Positions 48,916 to 64,000 of a stretch of 64,000 nt of DNA are shown here, piece after piece (positions within the stretch are counted from its first letter, which is position 1; each line of letters starts with the position of its first letter). Source of the DNA: Synechococcus lacustris (GTDB lineage Bacteria; Cyanobacteriota; Cyanobacteriia; PCC-6307; Cyanobiaceae). The notes beneath the pieces were generated by a model that did not search any database, had not been told where the DNA came from, and saw nothing but the letters and a program-made list of their open reading frames with translations. The translations under genes and the position numbers were made by a program. The stretch covers positions 124,001 through 188,000 of the forward strand of contig CAJAQB010000008.1 in the NCBI GenBank assembly GCA_903943975.1, given 5' to 3'.

Positions 48916-49290
48916 TCAGCTCAGGGCCTTGCCGGCCACGGTGATCGATTCCACCATCACGCGGGTGAGCTCCTGGCGGTGGCCGTTTTTGCGGCGGGTT
49001 TTCTTCTTTTTGCGCATCTTGAAGATGATCAGCTTGGGGCCGCGGCGATGGGCCAGCACCTTGAGGCTCACCTCAGCGTCTTGGACGTAGGGCTGGCCAA
49101 GGTTGGTTCCATTGCTGTCGCTAACCAGCAGCACCTCCTTGAGCGTGATCACCGAATCCACATCGGCGGCGATCCGGTCAAGGTCGTAGTAACGGTTCGG
49201 CTGGATCCAGAACTGCTGGCCAGAGGCCTCAACGATTGCGTACTGGCTGGTGCCGGGGGCCGGCGCCTGGGGTTTCTCGGATGGGCTCAT
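48916..49290 (-). CDS. rplU: 50S ribosomal protein L21
   Basis: The 124 residues carry the L21 core YAIVEASGQQFWIQPNRYYD and the basic stretch FKMRKKKKTRRKNGHRQELT. The rplU-rpmA pair beside kai genes is the arrangement known from marine picocyanobacteria. It is divergent from kaiA with a 146-nt gap that probably holds both promoters. Confidence 0.97.
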   Translation of the reverse strand: MSPSEKPQAPAPGTSQYAIVEASGQQFWIQPNRYYDLDRIAADVDSVITLKEVLLVSDSNGTNLGQPYVQDAEVSLKVLAHRRGPKLIIFKMRKKKKTRRKNGHRQELTRVMVESITVAGKALS

Positions 49291-49436
49291 GGAACACAGT
49301 TGGCATGGCCAGGCAGACCTCGCGGTCTTTGGGCCTGGCTCACGGCCAATCGAAAGACAAACAAAGATCTTCGCTGATCGCTATTACTTTCGTCAATACT
49401 GCCCGCCGGCACGGCTTCTGCCTTTCCTTTTTTTTG

Positions 49437-50276
49437 ATGGTGGATTCGGATCTGGTGATTGGTGCCCTGGTGCAAAAACAGGAGTTGCTGGCGGCCTGTG
49501 GCCAGTGGCTCCAGGGGGGGCGCTACCGGCTTAAGCCCATACCCCTGGACCAGCTGCAGGACTGCTGGGAGGGTCTCGATGGCATGTTGATCGAGGCGGA
49601 CGCCCTCGATGCAGCGGGGCTTGAGCGGTTGCGGCGGCAGGGCATGCTCCTGCCGGCGGTGGTGATTGGCGAGGTCACCGGTGGGGTGACCTACCACGAA
49701 GCGGAGATGCATCTGCAGCCGGATCAGCTGGAGCAGTTGCCCTACAACCTCGATGCGGCGGTTTCCCGCTTCCTGCAGCAGCGGCTGCAGCGGCAGAGCA
49801 CCCAGGAGCCGGTGCCCCCTGAGCACTGGAAATTGCCCCAGCGCCTGGAGGGGCGGCTCGGCTACCTGGGGGTGTTCTACAAACGCGACCCGCGCCTGTT
49901 CCTGCGCAACCTCGCCCACGGCGAGCAGCGGGAACTGCTCCAGTCACTGGAACGCAGTTATCGGGATGTGCTGCTCAGTTATTTTCGCGATCCCCCGGCC
50001 GCCAACCAGGCGATCGAGAGCTTTGTGAATACGGCCTTTTTCAGTGACCTGCCGATTCCTAAAGCTGTGGAAATCCACATGAATCTGGTGGATGGCTGGT
50101 CTAAGCAGCTATTGCTGGAGGGCCATAAGAGCGAGTTTATTCAGGATTATCGACTTGCTCTTCTCGATGTGATGGCTCATCTTTGTGAGATGTATCGACG
50201 GTCTATCCCTCCGGATGCTGCCGCTGGTCTTGGCCGCCATAGGGACCACCACAGACGTCAGGCGGAAATGTCATGA
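49437..50276 (+). CDS. kaiA: Circadian clock protein KaiA
   Basis: KaiA binds the KaiC A-loops and stimulates KaiC autophosphorylation. It has 279 residues from ATG 49437 (S. elongatus KaiA is 284): an N-terminal pseudo-receiver domain ([20 protein letters not shown]; the acidic phosphosite is absent) and a C-terminal four-helix KaiC-binding domain ([40 protein letters not shown]). The open frame to 49236 is not coding. The stop overlaps kaiB (ATGA). Prochlorococcus lacks intact kaiA, so this is a true oscillator locus. Confidence 0.96.
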
Positions 50277-50635
50277 GCCCCAGAAAGACCTACATCCTCA
50301 AGCTCTACGTGGCGGGGAACACCCCCAACTCGATGAGGGCCCTCAAGACCCTGAGAAACATTCTTGAGACTGAGTTCCGCGGGGTGTATGCCCTCAAGGT
50401 GATCGACGTGCTCAAGCAGCCCCAGCTGGCTGAGGAAGACAAGATCTTGGCAACGCCTACCCTGGCCAAGATTCTTCCCCCGCCTGTGCGTCGGATTATC
50501 GGTGACCTTTCCGACCGGGAAAGGGTGCTGATTGGTTTGGATCTTCTCTACGAGGAGCTCACTGACGACGACAACGACTACTCCTTTGAAGAGGCTTCTG
50601 ATCAAGAGGTTTCTGATCAAGAGGCTCCTGAATAG
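50273..50635 (+). CDS. kaiB: Circadian clock protein KaiB with acidic C-terminal extension
   Basis: KaiB antagonises KaiA by binding phosphorylated KaiC after a fold switch. The core ([20 protein letters not shown] to [20 protein letters not shown]) matches KaiB. The protein is 120 residues against ~102 in S. elongatus because of an acidic tail with a duplicated [10 protein letters not shown] unit (15-nt DNA repeat). It overlaps kaiA and lies 9 nt before kaiC, so the three genes are one operon. Confidence 0.96.
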
Positions 50636-50644
50636 CCATTTTTT

Positions 50645-52201
50645 ATGATCTCCCCAGCGATGCCAGAAAACAGTTTTGAACCCACGCACCTCAACCAGGT
50701 GCAAAAGCTTGCCACCGGGATCGAGGGGTTTGATGACGTTTGCCATGGGGGGCTGCCGATTGCCCGCTCCACCCTGATCAGCGGTACCTCGGGCACAGGC
50801 AAAACAGTATTTTCCCTACAGTTTCTCCATAACGGCATCAAGAATTTTGATGAGCCGGGAATCTTTGTCACCTTTGAGGAATCCCCCCTCGACATCCTGC
50901 GCAATGCGGCCAGTTTTGGCTGGGATTTGCAGAGCATGGTGGACCAGGACAAGCTATTCATTCTTGACGCCTCCCCAGATCCCGAGGGCCAGGATGTGGC
51001 GGGCTCCTTTGACCTTTCAGGCTTGATCGAGCGCGTTAACTATGCGATTCGCAAGTACAAGGCCAAGCGGGTGGCGATTGATTCGATCACCGCTGTATTC
51101 CAGCAATACGACGCCGTTTCAGTGGTGCGTCGCGAGATCTTTCGTTTGATTGCCAGGCTCAAGGAGATCGGCGTAACCACGGTGATGACCACCGAGCGCA
51201 TTGAGGAATATGGGCCGATCGCCCGCTATGGCGTTGAGGAATTTGTTTCCGACAACGTGGTAATCCTGCGCAATGTGTTGGAGGGGGAGCGGCGGCGGCG
51301 CACCTGCGAGATCCTCAAGCTGCGGGGCACCACCCATATGAAGGGTGAGTTTCCCTTCACGATGGGACCCCATGGCGTCAGCATCTTCCCGCTGGGGGCG
51401 ATGCAACTCACCCAGCGCTCTTCAAATGTGCGCGTTAGCTCTGGGGTGCCCCGCCTCGATGAGATGTGCGGCGGTGGCTTCTTCAAGGATTCGATTATTT
51501 TGGCCACCGGGGCCACCGGCACGGGCAAAACCCTGCTGGTGAGCAAATTTCTCGAAAATGCCTGTGCCAATAAGGAGCGGGCAATTCTATTTGCCTATGA
51601 GGAGTCTCGGGCCCAACTGCTGCGCAATGCCACCAGCTGGGGCATGGACTTCGAGCAGATGGAATCCGACGGGATGCTCAAGATCATCTGTGCCTATCCC
51701 GAATCCACCGGCCTTGAAGATCACCTGCAGATCATCAAAACTGAAATCAGCCAGTTCAAGCCCTCGCGCATGGCGATTGATTCGCTCTCAGCCCTAGCCC
51801 GGGGGGTGAGCCAAAACGCCTTCCGCCAGTTTGTGATCGGCGTGACCGGTTATGCCAAGCAGGAGGAGATTTCCGGCTTCTTCACGAACACCTCTGAGGA
51901 GTTCATGGGTAGCCATTCGATCACTGATTCGCATATCTCCACGATTACCGACACGATCTTGCTGCTCCAGTATGTGGAGATCCGCGGTGAAATGTCTCGG
52001 GCGCTAAATGTGTTCAAGATGCGGGGCTCCTGGCACGACAAAGCCATCCGGGAATTCATGATCACTGGCCATGGGCCGGAGATTAAAGATTCCTTTGCCA
52101 ATTTCGAGCGGATTATCAGTGGCGTTCCCCATCGGATCACCAGCGACGAACGCAGCGAACTTTCACGGATCGTGCGGGGTGTGGGCAGCGATGAGTTCTA
52201 G
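50645..52201 (+). CDS. kaiC: Circadian clock ATPase/kinase KaiC
   Basis: KaiC is the hexameric core of the clock. Its 518 residues have two RecA-like domains. CI carries the P-loop GTSGTGKT (47-54) and catalytic E78-E79; CII carries GATGTGKTLLVSKFLE. The autophosphorylation pair Ser432-Thr433 (SHISTITDT) corresponds to S431/T432 of S. elongatus. The C-terminal tail for KaiA binding is present (DERSELSRIVRGVGSDEF). ATG 50645 or ATG 50660 can start it. It converges with nblS, 15 nt away. Confidence 0.98.
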   Translation: MISPAMPENSFEPTHLNQVQKLATGIEGFDDVCHGGLPIARSTLISGTSGTGKTVFSLQFLHNGIKNFDEPGIFVTFEESPLDILRNAASFGWDLQSMVDQDKLFILDASPDPEGQDVAGSFDLSGLIERVNYAIRKYKAKRVAIDSITAVFQQYDAVSVVRREIFRLIARLKEIGVTTVMTTERIEEYGPIARYGVEEFVSDNVVILRNVLEGERRRRTCEILKLRGTTHMKGEFPFTMGPHGVSIFPLGAMQLTQRSSNVRVSSGVPRLDEMCGGGFFKDSIILATGATGTGKTLLVSKFLENACANKERAILFAYEESRAQLLRNATSWGMDFEQMESDGMLKIICAYPESTGLEDHLQIIKTEISQFKPSRMAIDSLSALARGVSQNAFRQFVIGVTGYAKQEEISGFFTNTSEEFMGSHSITDSHISTITDTILLLQYVEIRGEMSRALNVFKMRGSWHDKAIREFMITGHGPEIKDSFANFERIISGVPHRITSDERSELSRIVRGVGSDEF

Positions 52202-52216: not shown

Positions 52217-54097
52217 TTATACCCCCATCAACGAGGGTTGACGCCTTTCGGCTTTCAAGATCAGTTCATCGTCGTCGGCCTGTTCTAGGGGCAGGTCAAA
52301 CCAGAAGGTGGTGCCTACACCGAGTTCGCTAACAACCTGCACGCGGGAGCCATGCTTTTCAAGGATGCCCCGCACGATTGAAAGACCAAGGCCGGTGCCG
52401 GCTTCAGTGTGCACATTATTCTCCACCCGGTAGAAGCGTTCAAATACCCGGCGGCAATCCTCTTCGCCGATGCCATTACCGGTATCCGCAATTTCCACCC
52501 GCAGCCGTGGTAGCTGAGAGCTGGCATCCTGGGGTTCGAGCGGGCAGCTGTCTGGCCAGGGATAGGCCCGCAACTGCACCACACCACCGGCGGCGGTGAA
52601 TTTGACGGCATTGCCCACCAGATTGTCGAAAACCTGCAGGAGCAAATCCCAATTACCCCTCACCCTTGGTAGTTGCGGGGCCACATCAAGTTCTAGGGTC
52701 ACCCCCTTGTCCTTGGCATTGAGCCGATAGCTGCGCAAGGTTTGTTCCATGGCCGTGGGCAGTTCCAGCGGTTCGAAGTTCCAAACCCGATCGGATTCCA
52801 GTCGGGAGAGATCGAGCACGTCATTAACGAGTCGGGTGAGTCGATCGGTTTCGGCGTTGGCAGTGGCCAGAAACTCCTGCTTCTGTTCATCGGTGAGCTG
52901 ATCGCCCAAGTCGTGGAGAGTTTCCACATAGCTCTTGATGTTGAACAGCGGTGTGCGCAGCTCGTGGGACACATTGCTGATGAAGCGGCTCTGGGCGGCA
53001 TTCAGTTCCACCTCCCGGGTGAGGTCTTGCACTGTTACGGCGATGCCCTTAAGGGTTTCGCCGCTGCCATCGCGCACCGCTTGCAGTACTAGGCGCAGGG
53101 TGCGGGCCGGTTCGCCCATGGCACAGCGCACTTCGGCACTGTCTTTATTGCCGCTTAGCACCGCCTCCAGGGGATCCTGCAGTTCCATGGCCAGGCTGGA
53201 GGGCAGCAGGCTGCCAAGGGCACAGCCCTCCAGGTTGCGGCCTTCCCAGCGAAATAGGCGGCGGGCGGTGGGGTTTGCCAGCACCACCTGGCTCTCCGGA
53301 TCTAGCAACAGGGCGCCATCGGCCATGGTGGCGATCAGGGTCTGTTGTTTCACCTGGGCGGCGGTGAGTTCTTCGATGTTGGCGGCGTCGTAGGCCTGCA
53401 ATCGCGAGGCCATGTCATTGAAGCCCTCCAGTAATTCCCCCAGTTCGCCGCCCACCGGCAGGGAGATGCGGGTGCCGAAATCACCGTCGGCGATTGAACG
53501 CACCCCCCGCAACAGTTCTTTAACGGGGTGGGTGATGGTGAGGGCATTGAAGACTGCCCCAAGAATCACCAGCACCCAAATCGAAACAAATACCGCCACG
53601 GTCACGTCGCGGGTGAGGGCGGCACTGGCCAACACGGCCTCATTGGGGTTGATGCCCAGGGCCACTACCCCCAGGTAGCGGTCGCCGGCCAGCATCGGCA
53701 CAAACACGTCGGTGACTAGGCCATCGGGGGTGAGGTGTTGGCGGATCAGCGGGTTCTGGGTCCGTTCTTTTAGGTCTGGGGGGAGTTCAAGGCGGCGGCT
53801 TACCTGAAGTTCATTGCTGCCATCAACACGACTGATCGGAATGCCTAGATAGATCACCCCCTCGGGGTCGGCATAAAAGATGTAGCGAAGGCTGCGGCTG
53901 GCCCGCCAGAAGTCTTCGGTGACCTGGGCCAGCTCCCGATCGCGGCCTTCCGCTGCCAGGGGGGTGACATTGCTGGCCAGCAGTAGCCCCAGGTCGCGGG
54001 CGTAGCGGGTATCCCCCATGCGGGCCTCCATCTGGATGCCGTTGAGGGAGAAGAAGGTGAGGCCTGTCATCACCAGGCTCACCACCAGGGTGGCCAC
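52217..54097 (-). CDS. nblS: NblS-type sensor histidine kinase
   Basis: NblS (Hik33/Ycf26 group) is the conserved cyanobacterial kinase for high light and stress, acting with RpaB. There are 626 residues from GTG 54097: membrane helix 1, an extracytoplasmic region, helix 2 (TVAVFVSIWVLVILGAVF), HAMP, PAS (ATMADGALLLDPESQVVLAN), HisKA with FISNVSHELRTPLFNIKSYV, and HATPase (NLVGNAVKFTA, DTGNGIG, GTGLGLSI). The frame remains open 40+ codons upstream (QRWWAEFSLQTKLLA), resembling NblS N-termini, but has no ATG/GTG/TTG. CTG 54217 is a possible true start. Confidence 0.92.
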   Translation of the reverse strand: MATLVVSLVMTGLTFFSLNGIQMEARMGDTRYARDLGLLLASNVTPLAAEGRDRELAQVTEDFWRASRSLRYIFYADPEGVIYLGIPISRVDGSNELQVSRRLELPPDLKERTQNPLIRQHLTPDGLVTDVFVPMLAGDRYLGVVALGINPNEAVLASAALTRDVTVAVFVSIWVLVILGAVFNALTITHPVKELLRGVRSIADGDFGTRISLPVGGELGELLEGFNDMASRLQAYDAANIEELTAAQVKQQTLIATMADGALLLDPESQVVLANPTARRLFRWEGRNLEGCALGSLLPSSLAMELQDPLEAVLSGNKDSAEVRCAMGEPARTLRLVLQAVRDGSGETLKGIAVTVQDLTREVELNAAQSRFISNVSHELRTPLFNIKSYVETLHDLGDQLTDEQKQEFLATANAETDRLTRLVNDVLDLSRLESDRVWNFEPLELPTAMEQTLRSYRLNAKDKGVTLELDVAPQLPRVRGNWDLLLQVFDNLVGNAVKFTAAGGVVQLRAYPWPDSCPLEPQDASSQLPRLRVEIADTGNGIGEEDCRRVFERFYRVENNVHTEAGTGLGLSIVRGILEKHGSRVQVVSELGVGTTFWFDLPLEQADDDELILKAERRQPSLMGV

Positions 54098-54423
54098 CGC
54101 CAGCAGTTTGGTTTGCAGGCTGAATTCCGCCCACCAGCGCTGGATGGCCTCCCCGAGGCTGCGGCGTGGGCAGGGAGCTGGGGCGGGGGCCGCAGGGTTT
54201 GGGGTGGCGCTGGTCAGGGGGATTGCAGGGGGAAGTGGCCTCAGCCTAGGGAGCGAGCAAGGCGGTTAAGTGTTTTCAGCTAGTAAGGCTGCTACTACTT
54301 AGATCAAGGCGTAGCTGGCCCCATGCAGCAGCAGACTCATCGTCTTTCCTAGGATACTCTATGGCACTTGCGCCCCTATGATTGTTAATGCTAAAATAAT
54401 ATGCGTAATTTGTAGTTTTGTTG
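54098..54423. other. 326-nt region between nblS and the PhoD-like gene
   Basis: The nblS-proximal half probably encodes the N-terminus of NblS from a non-canonical start (in frame on the minus strand up to a stop at ~54267-54269). The other half turns AT-rich. It holds a possible promoter for the PhoD-like gene, TTGCGC (54368-54373), 18 nt, TAAAAT (54392-54397). I see no RNA gene or repeat. The base-composition change from GC-rich core to AT-rich block happens here. Confidence 0.6.
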
Positions 54424-56823
54424 ATGCCTGCGAAGATTGATGCTGTCTCTTCAGGTGCCTCCACAGCAAATTCGGGTACTTTTTGGGTACATGCTTCAGA
54501 CAGCAGCGCTGTTAATCAAGCAGCAACATTGCGCCTTGAGATCTCAACTAATAAAAATTTCTCTAGTCCGATTTCAAGCCAAAGCATCACAACTAAACCG
54601 GAGGATGGCTTAACTGCCAAGCTAACAATAAACACCCTCACCCCAGGGGTAACTTATTACTACCGATTTTTAGATGCAAGCACTTCGGCTGTTTCCCTGG
54701 ATGGTGTGTTTAAAACAGCACCATCGGCTGATTCAGCGGCAGCTCTGAAATTTGCATTTAGTGGCTGTGCCGATGGCCAGTACGCACCGTTCCCTGCGGT
54801 TAATTGGGAAACAACTAATCCTGGTTACGACTTCTTCATTATGAATGGAGATGCCGCCTATCCAACGGATGCCAATCTGTCTTCTGTTGGGGTTGTAAAT
54901 CCTATAACTGATCCAATTGCGAGTACGCTTACTGGTACTCAAGAGAAATATCTAGCCAATTTATTGCCTGCTGTGAAAGCTGCTGGTGCTACAAGTCAAT
55001 CCTCACTACAAAGCCTCTACCGCTCCCAGGGGCTATATGCTAGTTACGATAATCATGAAACAGGCGACAGCTATCTGGAGGCTGGAGGCGCACCCTTGGC
55101 ATTGCTTAATGATGCTGGGATGAATAATCGAGAAGGAACAGATAATCCCCAGTATTTTGTAAACAGCAATGGCAATCCTTCTGCATCTCTAAATGACTCT
55201 GCCAACTTTAAGGCAGTGATCAAGGCCTGGGGAGATTATATGCCTATTCCCCAAGCGTCTCTAGCATTTGCAGATCCTAATAATAGCGCAGCTATAGAGC
55301 CAGTGCTCTATAGTTCACAGTATTGGGGGAAAGGTGCATTAATAATCAATCTTGATGATAGAAGCTACCGCGATGCAAAAATTACCGATGCCGGCGATAA
55401 AGATGTATCAGTAATTGATCTTAAGGGGGCAGATGATCCCAATCGAACAATTCTCGGCAAAATCCAGCTTGATTGGCTTAAAAACGAATTAAAGCAGGCT
55501 CAGGCTAAGCAAACTACCCAGCAAAATCCGGTATGGAAATTTATAAATATTTCGAGCCCAATTGATGTTGCCGGAGCGCCTGGCAATACCGAAAGCAAGA
55601 CGATCAATGCTGAATACGCCCAAGGAGTTGTAAATGCAAAAAGTTGGTGGGGTAACTATCGCTATGAGAGGAATGAGCTGCTCAAGTATATTGCTGAAAA
55701 CGCAATCACTAATGTTGTATTCCTGGCATCAGATGACCACGAATTTCGCGTAAATGAGCTTACCTATGATCCAACATTGACAACTGGTGCCACTGCCAAC
55801 GTTTCCCTGGCCAATATGAAGGTTGTACCAGGTGCCTTTTCGGTAGTTGCTGGGCCTTTAGGGGCCACCCGTGCCGATAACTTTGCCGCTACTGCAAATA
55901 ATTTCTCCACATCTATTACGCTTGATCCGCGGTATGGAGATCCCATAACCTATGCCGGCGGATTTCAGCAGTTATCTACTGAATTGGCTAAAAATCAATT
56001 GCTAAGCAATGTCAATCCTATTGGGCTTGAAAAGCAGTTCCCAGGCTTGCTTTCGCTAAATCGCCATATTAATTTGTTTACCGATGCAACCGCTGCTACC
56101 ACGACGACTTATAAGGCCAACAAAGACCTACCTAACCCCGTGGATTTTTGGTCACCACAAACATTTAATATTGCCGAGTTAAGCCTCTCTAGTCAAGGGG
56201 ATTTGACCGTAGCAGCAAAGGGAATAACCGCCTATAAGCCAACTAATAGTACCTCTACAAAGTCGGCAAATATAGCTGTCCCTACAAGCGTGCCTAGTTC
56301 AATTCTTGATTTTACCATTAGCGGACAGAAGCTCTCGGATTTCAAGCTAGAAACCACTCCATTAAAGCGTTTTTATAATTCCAACTCCGGTGATCATGTA
56401 TGGACCAATGATCAAGCGGAGATTGATAAAATAACAGGAGCTTCTGCCCTTAAGTCTGGCTATGTGGAAGAAACCTATGATAAGATCACGCTCTGGAATC
56501 AATCTGCAGCATTAGCGGCCAATAATAATGATTTTTCAAAATTGTATCGCCTATACAATGGGGCTAAAAGTGATCATCTTTACACTTCTTCCCTGGTGGA
56601 AAAAGACAATGCCACAAAGAATCTCGGCTATGTAGACGAGGGTGCAATCGGTGCCGCCTGCTTGGTGAAGGCCTCCGCTGATGCCATGGGATTGAGTGGC
56701 ATTGCAAGGTTTCTAAATAATACAACAAATCAGCATCATTTTGTATTGGATCAATCACCAGAGTTTACGGCGCTAGCTGGCAATGCAAGCTTTAAAAATG
56801 AGGGAATTGTATGCTGGCTCTAG
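54424..56823 (+). CDS. PhoD-like metallophosphatase with C-terminal DUF5648-like repeats
   Basis: This 799-residue protein starts at ATG 54424 (two TTG codons precede it). An N-terminal fibronectin-like PhoD_N domain (~20-100, TPGVTYYYRFLDAS) comes first. A calcineurin-like PhoD core (~105-480) follows, with FSGCADGQ, FIMNGDAAYP, ASYDNHETGD and FLASDDHEFRVNEL as metal-site segments. The last ~155 residues hold three lectin-like repeats (RFYNSNSGDHVWTND, RLYNGAKSDHLYTSS, RFLNNTTNQHHFVLD). There is no Sec/Tat signal peptide. It is probably a surface or type I-secreted phosphatase; whether it is active is unknown. Codon usage is AT-richer than the core genes. Confidence 0.82.
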   Translation: MPAKIDAVSSGASTANSGTFWVHASDSSAVNQAATLRLEISTNKNFSSPISSQSITTKPEDGLTAKLTINTLTPGVTYYYRFLDASTSAVSLDGVFKTAPSADSAAALKFAFSGCADGQYAPFPAVNWETTNPGYDFFIMNGDAAYPTDANLSSVGVVNPITDPIASTLTGTQEKYLANLLPAVKAAGATSQSSLQSLYRSQGLYASYDNHETGDSYLEAGGAPLALLNDAGMNNREGTDNPQYFVNSNGNPSASLNDSANFKAVIKAWGDYMPIPQASLAFADPNNSAAIEPVLYSSQYWGKGALIINLDDRSYRDAKITDAGDKDVSVIDLKGADDPNRTILGKIQLDWLKNELKQAQAKQTTQQNPVWKFINISSPIDVAGAPGNTESKTINAEYAQGVVNAKSWWGNYRYERNELLKYIAENAITNVVFLASDDHEFRVNELTYDPTLTTGATANVSLANMKVVPGAFSVVAGPLGATRADNFAATANNFSTSITLDPRYGDPITYAGGFQQLSTELAKNQLLSNVNPIGLEKQFPGLLSLNRHINLFTDATAATTTTYKANKDLPNPVDFWSPQTFNIAELSLSSQGDLTVAAKGITAYKPTNSTSTKSANIAVPTSVPSSILDFTISGQKLSDFKLETTPLKRFYNSNSGDHVWTNDQAEIDKITGASALKSGYVEETYDKITLWNQSAALAANNNDFSKLYRLYNGAKSDHLYTSSLVEKDNATKNLGYVDEGAIGAACLVKASADAMGLSGIARFLNNTTNQHHFVLDQSPEFTALAGNASFKNEGIVCWL

Positions 56824-56867
56824 ACACATATATCATCATGACTGGTTTGGCTTGCTTCACATCCCTA

Positions 56868-56896
56868 TTGCCCTGGCCCGGCAATTGTACTATAAT
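56868..56896 (+). promoter_or_regulatory. Sigma-70-type promoter for the giant repeat protein
   Basis: TTGCCC (56868-56873), a 17-nt spacer and a perfect TATAAT (56891-56896) lie 36 nt before the GTG start of the 2,170-residue gene, in the 109-nt gap behind the PhoD-like gene. No Shine-Dalgarno sequence is evident before the GTG. Confidence 0.75.
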
Positions 56897-56932
56897 GGAC
56901 TGCGTTAAAACGATTTTAGTCTTGGTTTAGTT

Positions 56933-59900
56933 GTGACTCTGCCTACTAAAATCTCGTTTCCAGTTGATCTAAATCTAGGCATAGCCAATCTGTTGGTTGA
57001 CGATATTACATGGAATCTCGATGATTCAGGTGCTACTCCTTCGTCAATTTTATTAGATGGCAAGCAATTAGATGGTTGGCTTGGAACGGCAACAGGAATC
57101 ACAATTGATTTTGCTGGTGCATTAAAAGGAATTCAGTTAATAGGGGGGGCAAAATCAGGGATCAATTTATTCGATAGCGATTACAATGGGTTGGTAGATT
57201 CTTTTTATGTGGATCAAAGTATAATTGAGATTCCGGTTGTTCAATTGGGCCCTTTGCGGATTGAAAATGTTTCTTTTGAGCTTAATAAGTTTACCAACCT
57301 TGTTGATTTTGGCGCAGGGAAAAATCTTCCCTTCGCTGGTTCAATCAAGCTTAGTGCTGATCGGAATACCCTTGATATGGGTGATTTGCTACAGCTAGTA
57401 TCGGACAAGTTTAGTGGTGACTTTAATCTGAACACCGGAGATCTTGTCACTTCACTGGCAAGTTTAACAGGAACTTTGGGCTCATCAGCAGCACCTTTGC
57501 TTTCCTTCTCAGCTAGCAATGTTTCATCCACAATCAAAGGGCTGGCCACAGCAAATCAGGATGTACAGATTGATCTTGGAAAGCTCTCCGCTAGCCTGAA
57601 TCCCCTGGCAATTGGGAATAGTATGCCTCGGGCAACTATTGATCAACTAGTAGTAGAGTCAGGTGAAAATATAAATTTTGATAGCATAACCGTTGATTTT
57701 CCTGAAGGATATGACCTTTCGATCTTCGGCCTGGCTGAGTTAATTCCGCTAAGTTTAAAGAGTGGCAAGCTTAGTTTTGCTAAAAAGACAGATCAAACCC
57801 TAGACCCAGAGCAGCCGATACTATCTGTACAGGCGGTTATGAATACAGCTCTTTTAAAAGCAAAGCTAGCTACGATTCTGCAATCTCCCAAGCTCGACCT
57901 TAAAGTTGAGCGAATAGATTCAGCTGGCAAAAGGCAACAAATTACTGCTGCTGATAATCTTTCGCTGACAGTAAAGCGTGTGGCAAACCAATGGAAGACA
58001 GTTGCTAGTGATATATATGCAATAAACTTGAGTGATCTGGTTATTCCATTGCAGGGCGAGAGTGACCCAGAAGTAAGTGCCTCACTCTATTTGCCGGCCA
58101 TTGACGACAAAGGCAGCGCATTGGCTTTGCCGCAATTCATTACCGAAGCAGCTAAAAAAGATGGGTACTCTATTCCTAGCGGTACTCAGGTTTTGGCATC
58201 CATACAGGGTACGTATAGCAATGCTTCCATCTTTACCAGTACAACTGGAATCGCTTGGCTTTCCGGCAGTCTCCAGCAGCAACAGAATGTCAGCACATAT
58301 TCCTTCTTAGGTCAAGCTAATCTTTCAGCTCAATTAGATTACGGAAATCAATTCAAGGCAACTGGGTCAGTTCAAGCTAATTTAGCCCTTAATCTTAATT
58401 CCACAATAAATCAAGGTAAATCCCAAGAGATCACTGGATTGCCATCAATTAAGCTTGATTTTGGCGGGGCTCAGCTAAGTGATATATTGCTCAAGTTTGA
58501 TGCTTTTGATCTCTGCCTAGAGTATCTCGATTGGTATCCCAAGGATAAGAATCGCTCCCAGGAAATTGGAGGAGTCAAGATTTCAGGCCTTGTCGCCCAA
58601 GCCAAAGGCTTAAAAATAGATTTTAAGAAGGCACTTAATGGTGTTTCAGCCACCAGTGGTGTCAATCAATCCGGTGCAGATATTTTCTTATTTGATATTG
58701 ATCAAAATGGCAGTGTTGATGGCTTTTATCTTGATCAGGCAAGCATCAATGTTGCCTCTATCAAGACTGACTCGTTAACAATTGATAATGCTGTGATTTC
58801 CTTGAAAGGCTTATCTAACTTGGCAGCTCTGTCTGCAGATAAGTCTCAATCTCTTAGTGGTAAGGTTCAACTCTCTGCTGATCAAGCGGCTTTAGGTAAA
58901 TCCAAGGATTTGAATCTTATGGCGAAAGATTTTAAAGCTGATTATCTGTTAACTAGCGGTGCCCTTGCCGCTTCTGTTGGAAGCATTGGGGGCAGTTTGT
59001 CGGTAGACAGTCAACCTCTTCTGACTATTAGTACTTCTACTGATAATACTCAAAATCGAGTAAATCTAAATATAAACCCTAAAGCAGGCAACGATGAAGC
59101 ACTCGTAAGCATCCCTTCTCTTTCCGCAACATTTCAGGCTCTGACTGTTAACAAGCTAAGCCCCAGTGTGATAATTAATAATTTCAAGATCCAACAGGAT
59201 TACGATCTCGAGCTAGATGATCTTAAACTGATTTTACCAAAGGATTATCTGTCATCTGCGCTCGGATTGGCTGGTATTCTGCCTTTCCAAGTTACTAGTG
59301 GCAGCCTTACTTTCTCAAAACGCGCTGATGGCTCGATCGATAGCACTCAGCCGTCAGTAACAGTTGCTGGAACTATTGATATTGCTATGTTGGAGAAGCA
59401 ATTACGTGCATTGGTTCACTCTGCTGATCTTTCAGTATCGGTTTCCAGCTATGACCGTAGCGGCAAGCTAACTCCTTTGACAAATCAAACTATAACAGCA
59501 AAGCTTATACAGAAAGATTCAAAATGGATTCTGGTGGATTCCCCTGGTTTTGAGCTAACTATTGGAAATTTGCCCCTACGCTTTGCCACAGGCGCTAACC
59601 CAGTGGCGGTTACTTCTATATTGACGCTCCCAGCAATTGATGCCCAAGGTAAGTTGCAGTCATTGCCGGATAATTTAATTAGCCAATATCAATCGCTAAG
59701 CCAGGCTGCTTCAAATAGCAACCCCCAAGTCCTAGCCCAATTTAGTGGCAGCTATAAAGGTGACTCAGTTGTGAAATCTGCTAATGGTGCGGCTTGGTTG
59801 GCTGGAAGTTTAGATTTTAAGGATGGGATATCAACTCTTATCCTTGATGGGGCTGCAAATCTTTCCTCCAGCCTCGATTTTGGCAGTGGTAATAGCTTTA

Positions 59901-62900
59901 CTGGTGAGGTTGGTGCCAAGTTTAATTGGACTATGCTGGCGAGTCGTTCAACAGCAGGTGAATTTCAGCTTACTGGTAAGCGCTCTGTTGATCTTGATAG
60001 AGTTTCATTGAAGGATGTGAAACTTACTTCTGATGCCTTTGATGTTAGCCTTTCTGGCTTTGATTATCAGGCTGCAACTAGTGTTGCCATAGCTGGCAAG
60101 ACAATTTCTGGTTGTGTTGGCAAGGCGACTGGATTGACACTGAATCTAAGGGGACTGTTTAGCGGTGTTTCATTGAGCACTTCATCTAATCTTGTTGTTA
60201 ATAATGATCCTGCTTCGACTTCTGATATTTATTTGTTTGATCAAGATGCCAATGGTGTTATTGATGGCTTTTATCTAGATGCGGCTACAGCCAAGCTGGG
60301 ATCTGAAGTTTCAATTGGTCTTCTCCAAGTAGCGGCCCCAACACTTTCCCTTTCAAAACTAAGCAATTTACCTGAATTTTTCAGCAATAATAAATCATCT
60401 TTTACTGGAAGTATAAAGCTGGCAAGCCAATCAGCCAGATATGGTTCAGGGAAAGATTCTCTGATTAGTTTCAATAGCCCCAGCTCTGGGCCAGGAACTC
60501 AAGCACTCGAGGCCACGTATCAATTCGGGGTTGATCAATTTGATTTTGCTGCCAATTCAATTGGCTTGAATTTGAAGCAACTTAAAATAAATGCCAAGGC
60601 CTCTGCTCAATTAATCTCGAGCAGTAATGGCACCAGCTTAAATATTAACGCGAATGGATCTATCAACCTTGACGGTGCAGGTCTCAGTGAATTACAAGGT
60701 GATCTTGATATTTCATTCTTAAATGATTCACTTCAAACTGTCAAAGGTACATTTGAACTTTCGCAGCCCGTGCCTGGGCTTGACTTGAAAGGTAAACTTG
60801 TTCTTGATCACTCTTTTGTTGATGGTAAGGGCTCTTTGAAGCTGGAGGACGCTACATTTTTGGGGGCCAGTGTTAAAGGCTCTTTGAATTATGGCTTGGA
60901 CTCATTTACCGGCCAGTTTGATTTCAATAATTCGAAATCCTTGCAATTGCTTGACGGCTTTAGTCTGTTGCCAGAGTCCGCGGATTTCACACTTGCTTGT
61001 ACAAGAAATCCTGCAAATGTTGCAAGCTATAGTTCCTCCATCAAAGAAGGAATATTCAAACTTAACTTTGGAGATACTGAAACTCGTTTCCAGGGCGACA
61101 TATCATTGTCTTCATCTGGTGGCAGTCCATTGCAATTGGATTCAGTTCAGTTGAATCTTCTAAATGACACCACTATTAACGTTAATGGCTATCGCTTGCA
61201 ACTGATCGCCTCAGATCCAACAGCCCCATGCAATATCGCTTTTGACCGTAGCAATGGTTTGTTGACTCCCTCTATTTCTGGTAAGGTGAGATTTCCTGAT
61301 TTGGCAAATTTAACTTTTACATTGCCCCAAAATGGCTTGACATGGAGTGACAATGCCTGGTCTTTGAATTCCTTTAAAGCCGATTTTGGCCAGAAGCCAC
61401 TTGATCTTGGCCCCATAGAAATTGGACCTAATGCAACGATTGATTATTCAAATAAGACTTTAACTCTGAATCCTGATCTGAGCCTTGATCTGGGCGAGAT
61501 GAGTGCTGCCTTGCGCCCCCTTGGTGAAAAGATAAATACATATGTGACTCCAATTGCAGCTCCGATAGTGAAGTTTCTGCTAACTGATCTTGATTTGAGG
61601 TCAAATCCATCTATTTCCAAGACCATAGCTGATATCGAGAAAATTAATATTCCTTTCTATGATGGCAGGCCAGACGTGCCGATCACAAAAATATTGAAAA
61701 CACTTGCTGATTATTTTGAGGGTTATCCAGGTAACCCTTATCAAAATGACCGTATTCAGCTGGTGGAACTATTTGACAAACCTTTGTCTGATCTATATTC
61801 ACTCCTTAGGACAAATCCAGCGGCCGCCCAGAAATTGGCTGATACCATCGGGTTTACTATTCCCCAGCTTTGGCTGGATATCGCAGCTAAGGTTGATTAT
61901 AAGGATATTTCCCTCTCTAATTCTGTTAAATCTTTAGAATCATTGATTACCTTTGGCGATACCCTTGCCAGATCATCGGCCACTGATTCTTCAATTAAGC
62001 TGGATGGATTATCATTTACATTGAATTTGGATGCTGCCTCTGCATCCGCTCAAGCAGGTGCTACCACTTCAGCTAATTTAAAAACTGAGATTGCAAAGCT
62101 TTCTGGTGCATTTGATGCCATCCTTGCGGCAGGAGCGCAGAGCCCTAACCAGCCTCAAGCGACATCAGGTTCTCTATTCTCTGTGGATGCGACTATGCGG
62201 AGTGATCTTCTTGATGATCCCTTTGCCACTGTAGGGAAACTACTTACTAACAAACCCTTTGATCTAGCGGCGCTAGATCTAAAGTTAGATGCTGGTTTTT
62301 CTCTCAATCAACGCATACCAATTCCCTGGGAGTCGTTGTTAGGGATTCCGCCGGGCATCATTAATACTTCTTTGAATCTTAATGAAGGTTTGCAGTTTAA
62401 GGCGGGATTGTCTGTGGGGGTAACGACAGATAGAGATCAGTTGTCTGCTCTTACCATGGTGCCACTGAAAGAGATACCTGCAAATTTGTTACCGCTGCTG
62501 GCTGGTACGTCTGATAAGGGGGATCCATTGGGGCTGTACCTCGGTCAAATTCCGAATACTCCTCTTATGCAGCTTATCCCCACACTGGGAGTTGGTTTGA
62601 GCCTAGGAGCTGCATACGTTGGTGATTTGATTCGGCTCTCAACCACACTCACTGGAAATGTTTCTCTTGGCTTGAATCCTTCTTCCAGTCGCCTGTATCT
62701 TCAGAATATCATTGATAAGGGCTTTTCTCTTCCCGGTTTTTCTGCTAGCGCTGATCTAGATGCCAAGCTTGCCTTGGAGGCCTATGTTCCTTTTAAGGGC
62801 TGGAAGGGACCATCGTGGACATGGCCGATTCTTGATAATCAGTCTATATTTTCGACGTCAACGGCTGATGCGCCAAAGCAGGTCAAGGCGGATATTGCTG

Positions 62901-63445
62901 CTGTTATTGATTCTGATTTGTTTTTGGGAACCAAGGAGCTATCTGATGCTGATAAACAGCTTTTAAATACCCCCATTGGATCTGGTTACCAGCTTGCTGT
63001 GGGTCTATCTATTCAGCATCCCAATCAGAATCTAAGGAGTATAGGCTTTTATCCAGTAACTGATACCTTTGGCAGTATTGTAGATCCAATTACGGGAAAC
63101 TCCTTGAAGCCCTCTGATGGTAACTATGCCTCAGTGGCTAAAAGTTTGACCAGCCCTGAGTTGACAGTTGAATTCAGTGATACTGGTTCTTCAGTCCAAG
63201 CTGATTCGCATTTTCTAATTAGCAAGAATAAGATTTTGGCTCCTTTTGTTTCGGTTGACACTGCCGCCGGCGCTCAGGATTATTTTGCTTATGCAGAGGC
63301 AAACAAGGCTTCCTCGCCTCTTGTGAGCCCGAATGGTTTTTATTCTTTTGGCCTTGATTTAACACCCAGCACTTTTGACAGCTCCTTTAAGGATCTACTG
63401 GTGACAATTTCTAGTATTGACCCTCAGGAGATCCCTGCCACGTAA
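56933..63445 (+). CDS. Giant repeat protein (2,170 residues), probably cell-surface or secreted
   Basis: I do not recognise this protein as a whole. It starts at GTG 56933, has no Sec signal peptide or membrane helix, almost no Cys, and is rich in Ser, Leu, Asp, Gly and Asn. Two full tandem repeats (~500 residues, starting at 13 and 508) and part of a third (1021) make up the first ~1,230 residues. Each carries a D-x-D-x-N-G-x-x-D loop (81, 588, 1103) like a calcium-binding EF-hand/dockerin loop. The next ~800 residues are diverged beta-rich sequence. The C-terminus (QDYFAYAEANK, NGFYSFGLDL) recalls modules of cyanobacterial secreted proteins. Size, composition and lack of a signal fit type I-exported surface-layer or adhesin proteins. 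Confidence 0.8.
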   Translation: MTLPTKISFPVDLNLGIANLLVDDITWNLDDSGATPSSILLDGKQLDGWLGTATGITIDFAGALKGIQLIGGAKSGINLFDSDYNGLVDSFYVDQSIIEIPVVQLGPLRIENVSFELNKFTNLVDFGAGKNLPFAGSIKLSADRNTLDMGDLLQLVSDKFSGDFNLNTGDLVTSLASLTGTLGSSAAPLLSFSASNVSSTIKGLATANQDVQIDLGKLSASLNPLAIGNSMPRATIDQLVVESGENINFDSITVDFPEGYDLSIFGLAELIPLSLKSGKLSFAKKTDQTLDPEQPILSVQAVMNTALLKAKLATILQSPKLDLKVERIDSAGKRQQITAADNLSLTVKRVANQWKTVASDIYAINLSDLVIPLQGESDPEVSASLYLPAIDDKGSALALPQFITEAAKKDGYSIPSGTQVLASIQGTYSNASIFTSTTGIAWLSGSLQQQQNVSTYSFLGQANLSAQLDYGNQFKATGSVQANLALNLNSTINQGKSQEITGLPSIKLDFGGAQLSDILLKFDAFDLCLEYLDWYPKDKNRSQEIGGVKISGLVAQAKGLKIDFKKALNGVSATSGVNQSGADIFLFDIDQNGSVDGFYLDQASINVASIKTDSLTIDNAVISLKGLSNLAALSADKSQSLSGKVQLSADQAALGKSKDLNLMAKDFKADYLLTSGALAASVGSIGGSLSVDSQPLLTISTSTDNTQNRVNLNINPKAGNDEALVSIPSLSATFQALTVNKLSPSVIINNFKIQQDYDLELDDLKLILPKDYLSSALGLAGILPFQVTSGSLTFSKRADGSIDSTQPSVTVAGTIDIAMLEKQLRALVHSADLSVSVSSYDRSGKLTPLTNQTITAKLIQKDSKWILVDSPGFELTIGNLPLRFATGANPVAVTSILTLPAIDAQGKLQSLPDNLISQYQSLSQAASNSNPQVLAQFSGSYKGDSVVKSANGAAWLAGSLDFKDGISTLILDGAANLSSSLDFGSGNSFTGEVGAKFNWTMLASRSTAGEFQLTGKRSVDLDRVSLKDVKLTSDAFDVSLSGFDYQAATSVAIAGKTISGCVGKATGLTLNLRGLFSGVSLSTSSNLVVNNDPASTSDIYLFDQDANGVIDGFYLDAATAKLGSEVSIGLLQVAAPTLSLSKLSNLPEFFSNNKSSFTGSIKLASQSARYGSGKDSLISFNSPSSGPGTQALEATYQFGVDQFDFAANSIGLNLKQLKINAKASAQLISSSNGTSLNINANGSINLDGAGLSELQGDLDISFLNDSLQTVKGTFELSQPVPGLDLKGKLVLDHSFVDGKGSLKLEDATFLGASVKGSLNYGLDSFTGQFDFNNSKSLQLLDGFSLLPESADFTLACTRNPANVASYSSSIKEGIFKLNFGDTETRFQGDISLSSSGGSPLQLDSVQLNLLNDTTINVNGYRLQLIASDPTAPCNIAFDRSNGLLTPSISGKVRFPDLANLTFTLPQNGLTWSDNAWSLNSFKADFGQKPLDLGPIEIGPNATIDYSNKTLTLNPDLSLDLGEMSAALRPLGEKINTYVTPIAAPIVKFLLTDLDLRSNPSISKTIADIEKINIPFYDGRPDVPITKILKTLADYFEGYPGNPYQNDRIQLVELFDKPLSDLYSLLRTNPAAAQKLADTIGFTIPQLWLDIAAKVDYKDISLSNSVKSLESLITFGDTLARSSATDSSIKLDGLSFTLNLDAASASAQAGATTSANLKTEIAKLSGAFDAILAAGAQSPNQPQATSGSLFSVDATMRSDLLDDPFATVGKLLTNKPFDLAALDLKLDAGFSLNQRIPIPWESLLGIPPGIINTSLNLNEGLQFKAGLSVGVTTDRDQLSALTMVPLKEIPANLLPLLAGTSDKGDPLGLYLGQIPNTPLMQLIPTLGVGLSLGAAYVGDLIRLSTTLTGNVSLGLNPSSSRLYLQNIIDKGFSLPGFSASADLDAKLALEAYVPFKGWKGPSWTWPILDNQSIFSTSTADAPKQVKADIAAVIDSDLFLGTKELSDADKQLLNTPIGSGYQLAVGLSIQHPNQNLRSIGFYPVTDTFGSIVDPITGNSLKPSDGNYASVAKSLTSPELTVEFSDTGSSVQADSHFLISKNKILAPFVSVDTAAGAQDYFAYAEANKASSPLVSPNGFYSFGLDLTPSTFDSSFKDLLVTISSIDPQEIPAT
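56969..58453 (+). repeat. Protein repeat unit 1 of the giant gene
   Basis: Residues ~13-507. Landmarks: LDGWLGTATGITIDFAGALK, the loop LFDSDYNGLVDSFYVD, AGSIKLSADRNTLDMG, LSFAKKTDQ, LYLPAIDDKG, GIAWLSGSLQ. Boundaries are approximate. Confidence 0.75.
58454..59992 (+). repeat. Protein repeat unit 2 of the giant gene
   Basis: Residues ~508-1020. The same landmarks occur in the same order: ISGLVAQAKGLKIDFKKALN, LFDIDQNGSVDGFYLD, SGKVQLSADQAALGKS, LTFSKRADG, LTLPAIDAQG, GAAWLAGSLD. Similarity is at the protein level; the DNA has diverged. Confidence 0.75.
59993..60620 (+). repeat. Partial protein repeat unit 3 of the giant gene
   Basis: Residues ~1021-1230. Landmarks of the first part only: ISGCVGKATGLTLNLRGLFS, LFDQDANGVIDGFYLD and TGSIKLASQSARYGSGKD. 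The later landmarks are missing, so the unit is truncated and runs into unrelated beta-rich sequence. Confidence 0.7.
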
Positions 63446-63450
63446 TGTGA

Positions 63451-64000
63451 TCATAGGCCCAATGCTGGAAAGAGATATTTATAACCTTCGCTGCTAAAAG
63501 CTTCTCGTGCAAAGGTATAGTTTTGATTGTATTCAGCAAGTGTCTCAGGTCCAATAGGCATCGCGATTGAGGAGCTATTGTTCAGCTGAATAATCTCTAC
63601 ATTCCCCTTTTGCCCGCCTTGAATCCCGTAGATTTTATTTTCTACAGTTACCACTTCAAGATCATAGGAACTAAGCTGCCATGTGCCGTTGTCTAGGGTT
63701 TTAGTCCATACGGGTGCTTCTCCATACCAGGCATTTGGGTCAAAAATTGTTGGTGTTGGCACTGGTACGTTCCCCCCTAAGCCTGTTAAGGGATCAAACA
63801 CTGATACTTGGGCTGGATCAGTTTTCTTCCCGGTTACTGGATCAACATAGGTAGTGGCATATCCAAATAACTTTGCTGTGTCTGGGGTAAGCTTAAAGCT
63901 ACTTTTTGTACCTTGGCTGTCAACATTCACCACAGCACCTTCTTTGTCGTAATTCACGTTAGAGTTCATCAGAATTGTCAAGTTGAATGGCGTGGAAGCA
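63451..64000 (-). CDS. C-terminal part of a probable large surface/secreted protein, cut by the window edge
   Basis: The frame is open from the window edge to TGA 63451. A TTG lies at 63981, but the codons before it stay open (STPFNLT), so the gene very probably continues beyond the window. The visible ~183 residues are Asn/Thr/Val/Gly-rich with no Cys: YDKEGAVVNVDSQGTKSSFK, YVDPVTGKKTDPAQVSVFDP and VENKIYGIQGGQKGNVEIIQ. I recognise no family. It converges with the giant gene, 5 nt apart, and shares its AT-rich composition. Confidence 0.7.
   Translation of the reverse strand, partial: ASTPFNLTILMNSNVNYDKEGAVVNVDSQGTKSSFKLTPDTAKLFGYATTYVDPVTGKKTDPAQVSVFDPLTGLGGNVPVPTPTIFDPNAWYGEAPVWTKTLDNGTWQLSSYDLEVVTVENKIYGIQGGQKGNVEIIQLNNSSSIAMPIGPETLAEYNQNYTFAREAFSSEGYKYLFPALGL

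Follow-up and report, generated by a model that had tools for sequence, protein, structure and literature searches.

A 2,170-residue picocyanobacterial protein with an undescribed tandem repeat, encoded on an inserted island

Introduction

Does a long picocyanobacterial reading frame, whose front is built from tandem repeats of no familiar kind, encode another of the giant proteins that these organisms export, or do its neighbors and base composition call for a different explanation? The question arises from a 64,000-nucleotide stretch of DNA (hereafter, the window), for which an earlier note made from the sequence alone had proposed a new calcium-dependent surface protein comparable to SwmB. 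The functions of giant exported proteins in picocyanobacteria are mostly unknown, with SwmB as the main exception. In marine Synechococcus they are reported to be strain-specific and rarely similar between strains, and their transfer on islands has been proposed (PMC4949707). An estuarine strain has four large exported proteins with cadherin-like or RTX-like repeats (PMC9387257).

Open Reading Frame and Tandem Repeats

The reading frame had been placed correctly and at its full length of 2,170 residues, with a GTG start at 56933 and a stop at 63445 on the forward strand. Upstream of the GTG the frame stays open for eight codons before an in-frame stop, and no start codon is among the eight; the open frame is 2,178 codons in all. 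Features of the gene and its surroundings are listed in Table 1.

Table 1. Features of the repeat gene and its surroundings, in window positions.
Feature	Residues	Positions	Strand	Basis or remark
AT-rich island, window part		54300..64000	.	GC content; ends past the window near L003:2820
PhoD-type phosphatase fused to DUF5648		54418..56823	+	no signal peptide seen
Sigma-70-like promoter, TTGCCC-17-TATAAT		56868..56896	+	consensus match only; ends 36 bp 5' of GTG
Repeat-protein ORF	2,170 aa	56933..63445	+	GTG start
Repeat copy 1	1-514	56933..58474	+	self-alignment
DxDxNGxxD loop 1	81-89	57173..57199	+	motif
Repeat copy 2	518-1030	58484..60022	+	self-alignment
DxDxNGxxD loop 2	588-596	58694..58720	+	motif
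Partial repeat copy 3	1031 to about 1184	60023..60484	+	HMM of copies 1+2, BLASTP
DxDxNGxxD loop 3	1103-1111	60239..60265	+	motif
Beta-strand-like stretch	1185-1487	60485..61393	+	hydrophobicity alternates strongly every two residues; matches no family
Giant-protein core module	1488-1985	61394..62887	+	common to 8,311-, 6,027-, and 3,809-aa cyanobacterial ORFs
Degenerate DUF4114-type C-terminal domain	2035-2159	63035..63409	+	profile of 28 relatives
Convergent 763-aa gene (L003:452-2743), window end		63451..63999	-	N-terminal DUF5648 plus cPLA2-like domain by motif only

The two complete copies and one partial copy of a repeat described earlier are borne out by BLASTP, Smith-Waterman alignment, and hidden Markov models. 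Self-alignment, which had been named as a check that could overturn the claim, returned significant internal repeats: copies 1 and 2 are 30.7% identical over 479 columns (BLASTP, E = 1.3e-60), and their Smith-Waterman score is 590, against a maximum of 88 among shuffles (n = 100). Copy 3 aligns by BLASTP with copy 2 (E = 2e-16) and with copy 1 (E = 8e-12), and a model of copies 1 and 2 matches it at residues 1047-1175 (i-E 1e-24 in a single-sequence database). The length of the unit, first put at ~500 residues, is about 510, while the end of the repeats moves from residue 1230 to near 1184. Profile matches over residues 1176-1292 are circular, because this stretch was part of the profile's alignment; the model built from copies 1 and 2 alone ends at 1175-1184.

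That the unit belongs to no nameable family, as the earlier note held, agrees with every library consulted. Pfam and NCBIfam scans of the whole protein gave no family at E ≤ 10, and hence no Pfam match that would explain the unit as a known domain, and three profiles searched against PDB sequences gave nothing useful, the repeat unit being without a match. Among 400 genomes of the same family and 386 of the same phylum, the repeat profile matched only once outside its own genome (L035, E = 0.003), in an NADH-dehydrogenase-like membrane subunit that we rejected as a chance match. Neither the other genomes of the genus, three in number, nor about 790 genomes of cyanobacteria contain the N-terminal half. 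No relative of the protein was found in phages and plasmids by tblastn. Two pattern-based scans covering 85,000 species genomes were also negative, though scans of this kind depend on a handful of short peptides and would overlook remote relatives; viral contigs contain no match to the repeat profile or to the core module described below. Alignment of the repeat unit with that core module, or with the part upstream of it, gave no relation (hhalign probability under 1%). Judged by sequence, the ~510-residue unit is an undescribed repeat domain, without precedent in the libraries searched.

Residues 1-1985 show the hydrophobic periodicity of beta strands, with a period near two, and it is strongest at 1185-1487. 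AlphaFold models were made from three-row alignments, with a mean pLDDT of 48.9 and pTM of 0.34 for the full repeat unit and a pLDDT of 61 and pTM of 0.54 for the 154 loop-bearing residues. The full-unit model led Foldseek to an actin-capping protein, which was rejected (TM 0.17, rmsd 14). With the 154-residue model there was no Foldseek match below E = 1, and the best VIA-align match, OspA (Z 5.0), is inside the chance range. We claim no fold for the repeat unit, since pLDDT values of 49 and 61 are too low and a Z of 5.0 is within chance.

Conserved Loops

The motif DxDxNGxxD occurs only three times in the protein, exactly where it had been reported (residues 81, 588, and 1103), and in register between the copies. 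All copies are identical at 11 of the 18 loop columns (77-94), vs. 12 of 87 flanking columns (Fisher p = 7e-5). Because the copies have otherwise diverged so far, this conservation signals a clear constraint on the loop. The full pattern of the loop, described earlier as EF-hand-like, is DxDxNGxxDxFY, with Tyr at position 12 in three of three copies where a canonical EF-hand needs an acidic residue, so this is not a canonical EF-hand. An EF-hand loop lies between two helices; the model of the 154 loop-bearing residues, which is weak, would place this loop between beta strands.

Relatives of the Back Half

The earlier note overlooked the relatives of residues 1488-2160, together with the recent three-gene insertion described in the next section. 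Its comparison with giant proteins gains support from them, as the core module and the C-terminal domain are both common to giant cyanobacterial ORFs. An 8,311-aa ORF from another picocyanobacterial genus aligns with residues 1488-1927 (24% identity, 489 columns, E about 1e-13). More distantly, the core-module profile reaches a 6,027-aa ORF (E = 3.5e-5) and a 3,809-aa ORF (E = 0.0025). With hhalign, the core module matches the 6,027-aa ORF at a probability of 92% over 87 columns around LLDDPFATVGKLLTNKPFDL; the link to this protein amounts to 87-150 aligned positions.

The 8,311-aa ORF (G021:C9; L042-L044) resembles the window protein in having the core module with its YPGNPY landmark and a DUF4114-type C-terminus, but its front is made of ELWxTDGTxAGT propeller-type, Ig-like, and short beta-strand repeats, with no 510-residue unit. 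The core module occurs in it twice, the second copy being weak. The 6,027-aa ORF (G528:C78; L075), from another cyanobacterial family, shares a distant version of the core module and differs in its many EF-hand-like inserts and in the RTX repeats at its end, the window protein having no RTX. C-terminal RTX repeats are a mark of type I secretion. Two back-half modules are thus connected across giant ORFs, one of them without annotation in the libraries searched.

Of 400 genomes in the family, 39 encode the C-terminal domain, within ORFs that reach 4,844 aa. DUF4114 (PF13448) is matched in Pfam by 28 of the 29 aligned copies, the window copy alone being unmatched. A profile of the 28 relatives, with the window row left out, matches residues 2035-2159 (E = 1.4e-19, 76.1 bits; best shuffle 6.3 bits). 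Work on other organisms has tied DUF4114 to the binding of Ca2+ and sugars (PMC9109919, PMC11934332). The family includes Myxococcus PilY1.1 and the Acanthamoeba mannose-binding protein, and the C-terminal 125 residues of the window protein are related to sequences matching it; unlike these, the window copy falls below detection and is missing the GGGDRDFDD stretch. In the relatives this stretch is part of an Asp/Gly-rich putative Ca2+ site, EDxxGGGDRDFDD, in whose place the window copy has DLTPSTFDSSFKD; lacking it, the domain may no longer bind Ca2+ or sugar.

Inserted Island and Neighboring Genes

The repeat gene is located on an 11.5-kb AT-rich island with sharp edges (about 43-45% GC in a region of 63% GC). 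Three genes make up the island: a phoD-DUF5648 fusion, the repeat gene, and a convergent DUF5648 gene of 763 aa. On its outer flanks are nblS (52217-54097; best NCBIfam match TCSHisKinNblS) and purD, which overlap or lie within 65 bp of one another in five of the five relatives examined, two of them of the same genus. Because these two genes abut in the relatives, the three-gene block is an insertion between them. The circadian clock genes kaiA, kaiB, and kaiC adjoin nblS and are intact (window positions 49236-52201).

The convergent gene has SGGGW and DGG motifs like those of cytosolic phospholipase A2; its cPLA2-like domain found no support in Pfam or the PDB. The genome has DUF5648 at ten places (L062-L071), mostly in AT-richer patches, and the partners of this domain include PhoD, a GH9 cellulase, and the phospholipase-like domain, all probable exoenzymes, as well as Ig-like repeats. 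DUF5648 may serve in sorting or retention.

This company could mean that the three genes form a nutrient-scavenging cassette. PhoD and the phospholipase-like enzyme would free phosphate and lipids close to the cell, and the repeat protein, as a secreted scaffold or helper for these two neighbors, would retain what they release. Such a role is consistent with the joint insertion of the three genes between nblS and purD, and with the presence of DUF5648 on both neighbors and, elsewhere in the genome, on the GH9 cellulase. However, DUF5648 is absent from the repeat protein itself, the repeat gene is preceded by a promoter-like site of its own, DUF5648 proteins are found at eight other places without a repeat protein, and the joint insertion may be accidental. 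We regard a scavenging cassette as unlikely, if worth keeping in mind.

The composition of the gene (43% GC vs. 63%) could also indicate a passenger, that is, a recently acquired ORF with little or no expression in its host. The absence of its N-terminal half from the three same-genus and about 790 cyanobacterial genomes fits with this, as does the degenerate C-terminal motif. Against it, 6.5 kb have remained open with no stop, copies with no more than about 30% identity have kept the loop aspartates, and the promoter-like site has a perfect -10. We think it quite improbable that the gene is merely carried along.

Possible Export Route

The absence of a signal peptide, claimed from the outset, is confirmed by a Kyte-Doolittle scan, which found no N-terminal hydrophobic stretch and no transmembrane-like window (19-residue maximum 1.49). 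There are no GGxGxDxxx nonapeptide repeats in the protein (no Pfam family at E ≤ 10, and none visible). In the immediate surroundings the neighbors are nblS, phoD-DUF5648, the DUF5648 protein, and purD, and the island has no secretion genes; other contigs (C9, C11, and C20) encode HlyB-like transporters with HlyD partners. As the protein has neither a signal nor an island transporter, yet ABC/HlyD pairs are encoded elsewhere, type I export is possible for it. On contig C3 (G000:C3:70712-75849, L053), genes for an LssB/PrtD-like ABC transporter and HlyD precede a large ORF that matches DUF5801 and probably encodes their substrate.

Least probable, and in our view doubtful, is that the protein stays in the periplasm or spans the envelope as an AsmA/TamB-type beta-groove protein that transports lipids or holds outer-membrane proteins while its phospholipase-like and phosphatase neighbors act on lipids and phosphate: the two-residue hydrophobic alternation in residues 1-1985 with its maximum at 1185-1487, a weak T2SSN Pfam match (E = 0.06) in one segment of the 8,311-aa relative, and a neighbor that is lipid-active by motif all fit, but the signal peptide or inner-membrane anchor that AsmA/TamB proteins carry is absent, as is any transmembrane-like window, AsmA, TamB, and DUF748 are unmatched in Pfam at E ≤ 10, and the DUF4114-type C-terminus and the RTX-ended relative indicate an extracellular site.

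Interpretation

The explanation that we prefer, and to which we give about an even chance, places the product among the giant modular exoproteins of picocyanobacteria, as a strain-specific member that is probably stabilized by Ca2+ and has an undescribed repeat at its front. The gene has what is typical of such proteins: it is a long repeat-built ORF without a signal peptide, it is strain-specific and lies on an island, and it shares domains with giant ORFs. In favor of this reading are the tandem copies, the conservation of the loops, the shared back-half modules, the HlyB/HlyD-like pairs, and the beta periodicity. Weighing against it, three loops in 2,170 residues would give a calcium-folded protein a low calcium load, the island has no secretion gene, there are no RTX repeats, the DUF4114-type site is degenerate, and the models of the repeat are poor.

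From these observations we infer export, Ca2+ binding, a rod shape, and a role in cell contact. With no Sec signal, the exoprotein would most likely be exported by one of the HlyB/HlyD-type pairs encoded on other contigs. Where the water contains calcium, each loop would bind one Ca2+ and stiffen its beta-rich unit, and the stiffened units would make the N-terminal half an elongated rod. The C-terminal half, perhaps through contact with glycans, would anchor the protein to the cell surface or the matrix. The protein would then either mediate contacts with grazers, other bacteria, phage, or detritus or block them. A bolder version is that the ~510-residue unit represents a new domain family, one that folds or stiffens when a single Ca2+ binds in a non-EF-hand beta-turn loop, and that a mobile three-gene cassette delivers it, along with a phospholipase-like enzyme and a phosphatase, to equip a picocyanobacterium to make contact with other cells or to feed on them; this combination seems to us a long shot.

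Comparison with Known Giant Proteins

Like SwmB, the window protein is a large and probably exported repeat protein of a picocyanobacterium. SwmB has a role in swimming. The earlier note had called the two comparable in scale, but 2,170 aa is a fifth of the 10,791 aa of SwmB in Synechococcus WH8102 (PMC4949707). Unlike the giants of the estuarine strain, the window protein has neither cadherin-like nor RTX-like repeats. An orphan repeat within a strain-specific exoprotein is an already known pattern; the repeat itself is new to the libraries searched.

Its small size, clear repeat, and clean insertion make this protein a tractable case for the function and export of such proteins. It is expressible in parts and offers a clear repeat unit and a testable candidate calcium site, and excision of the cleanly bounded island would give back the ancestral gene order.
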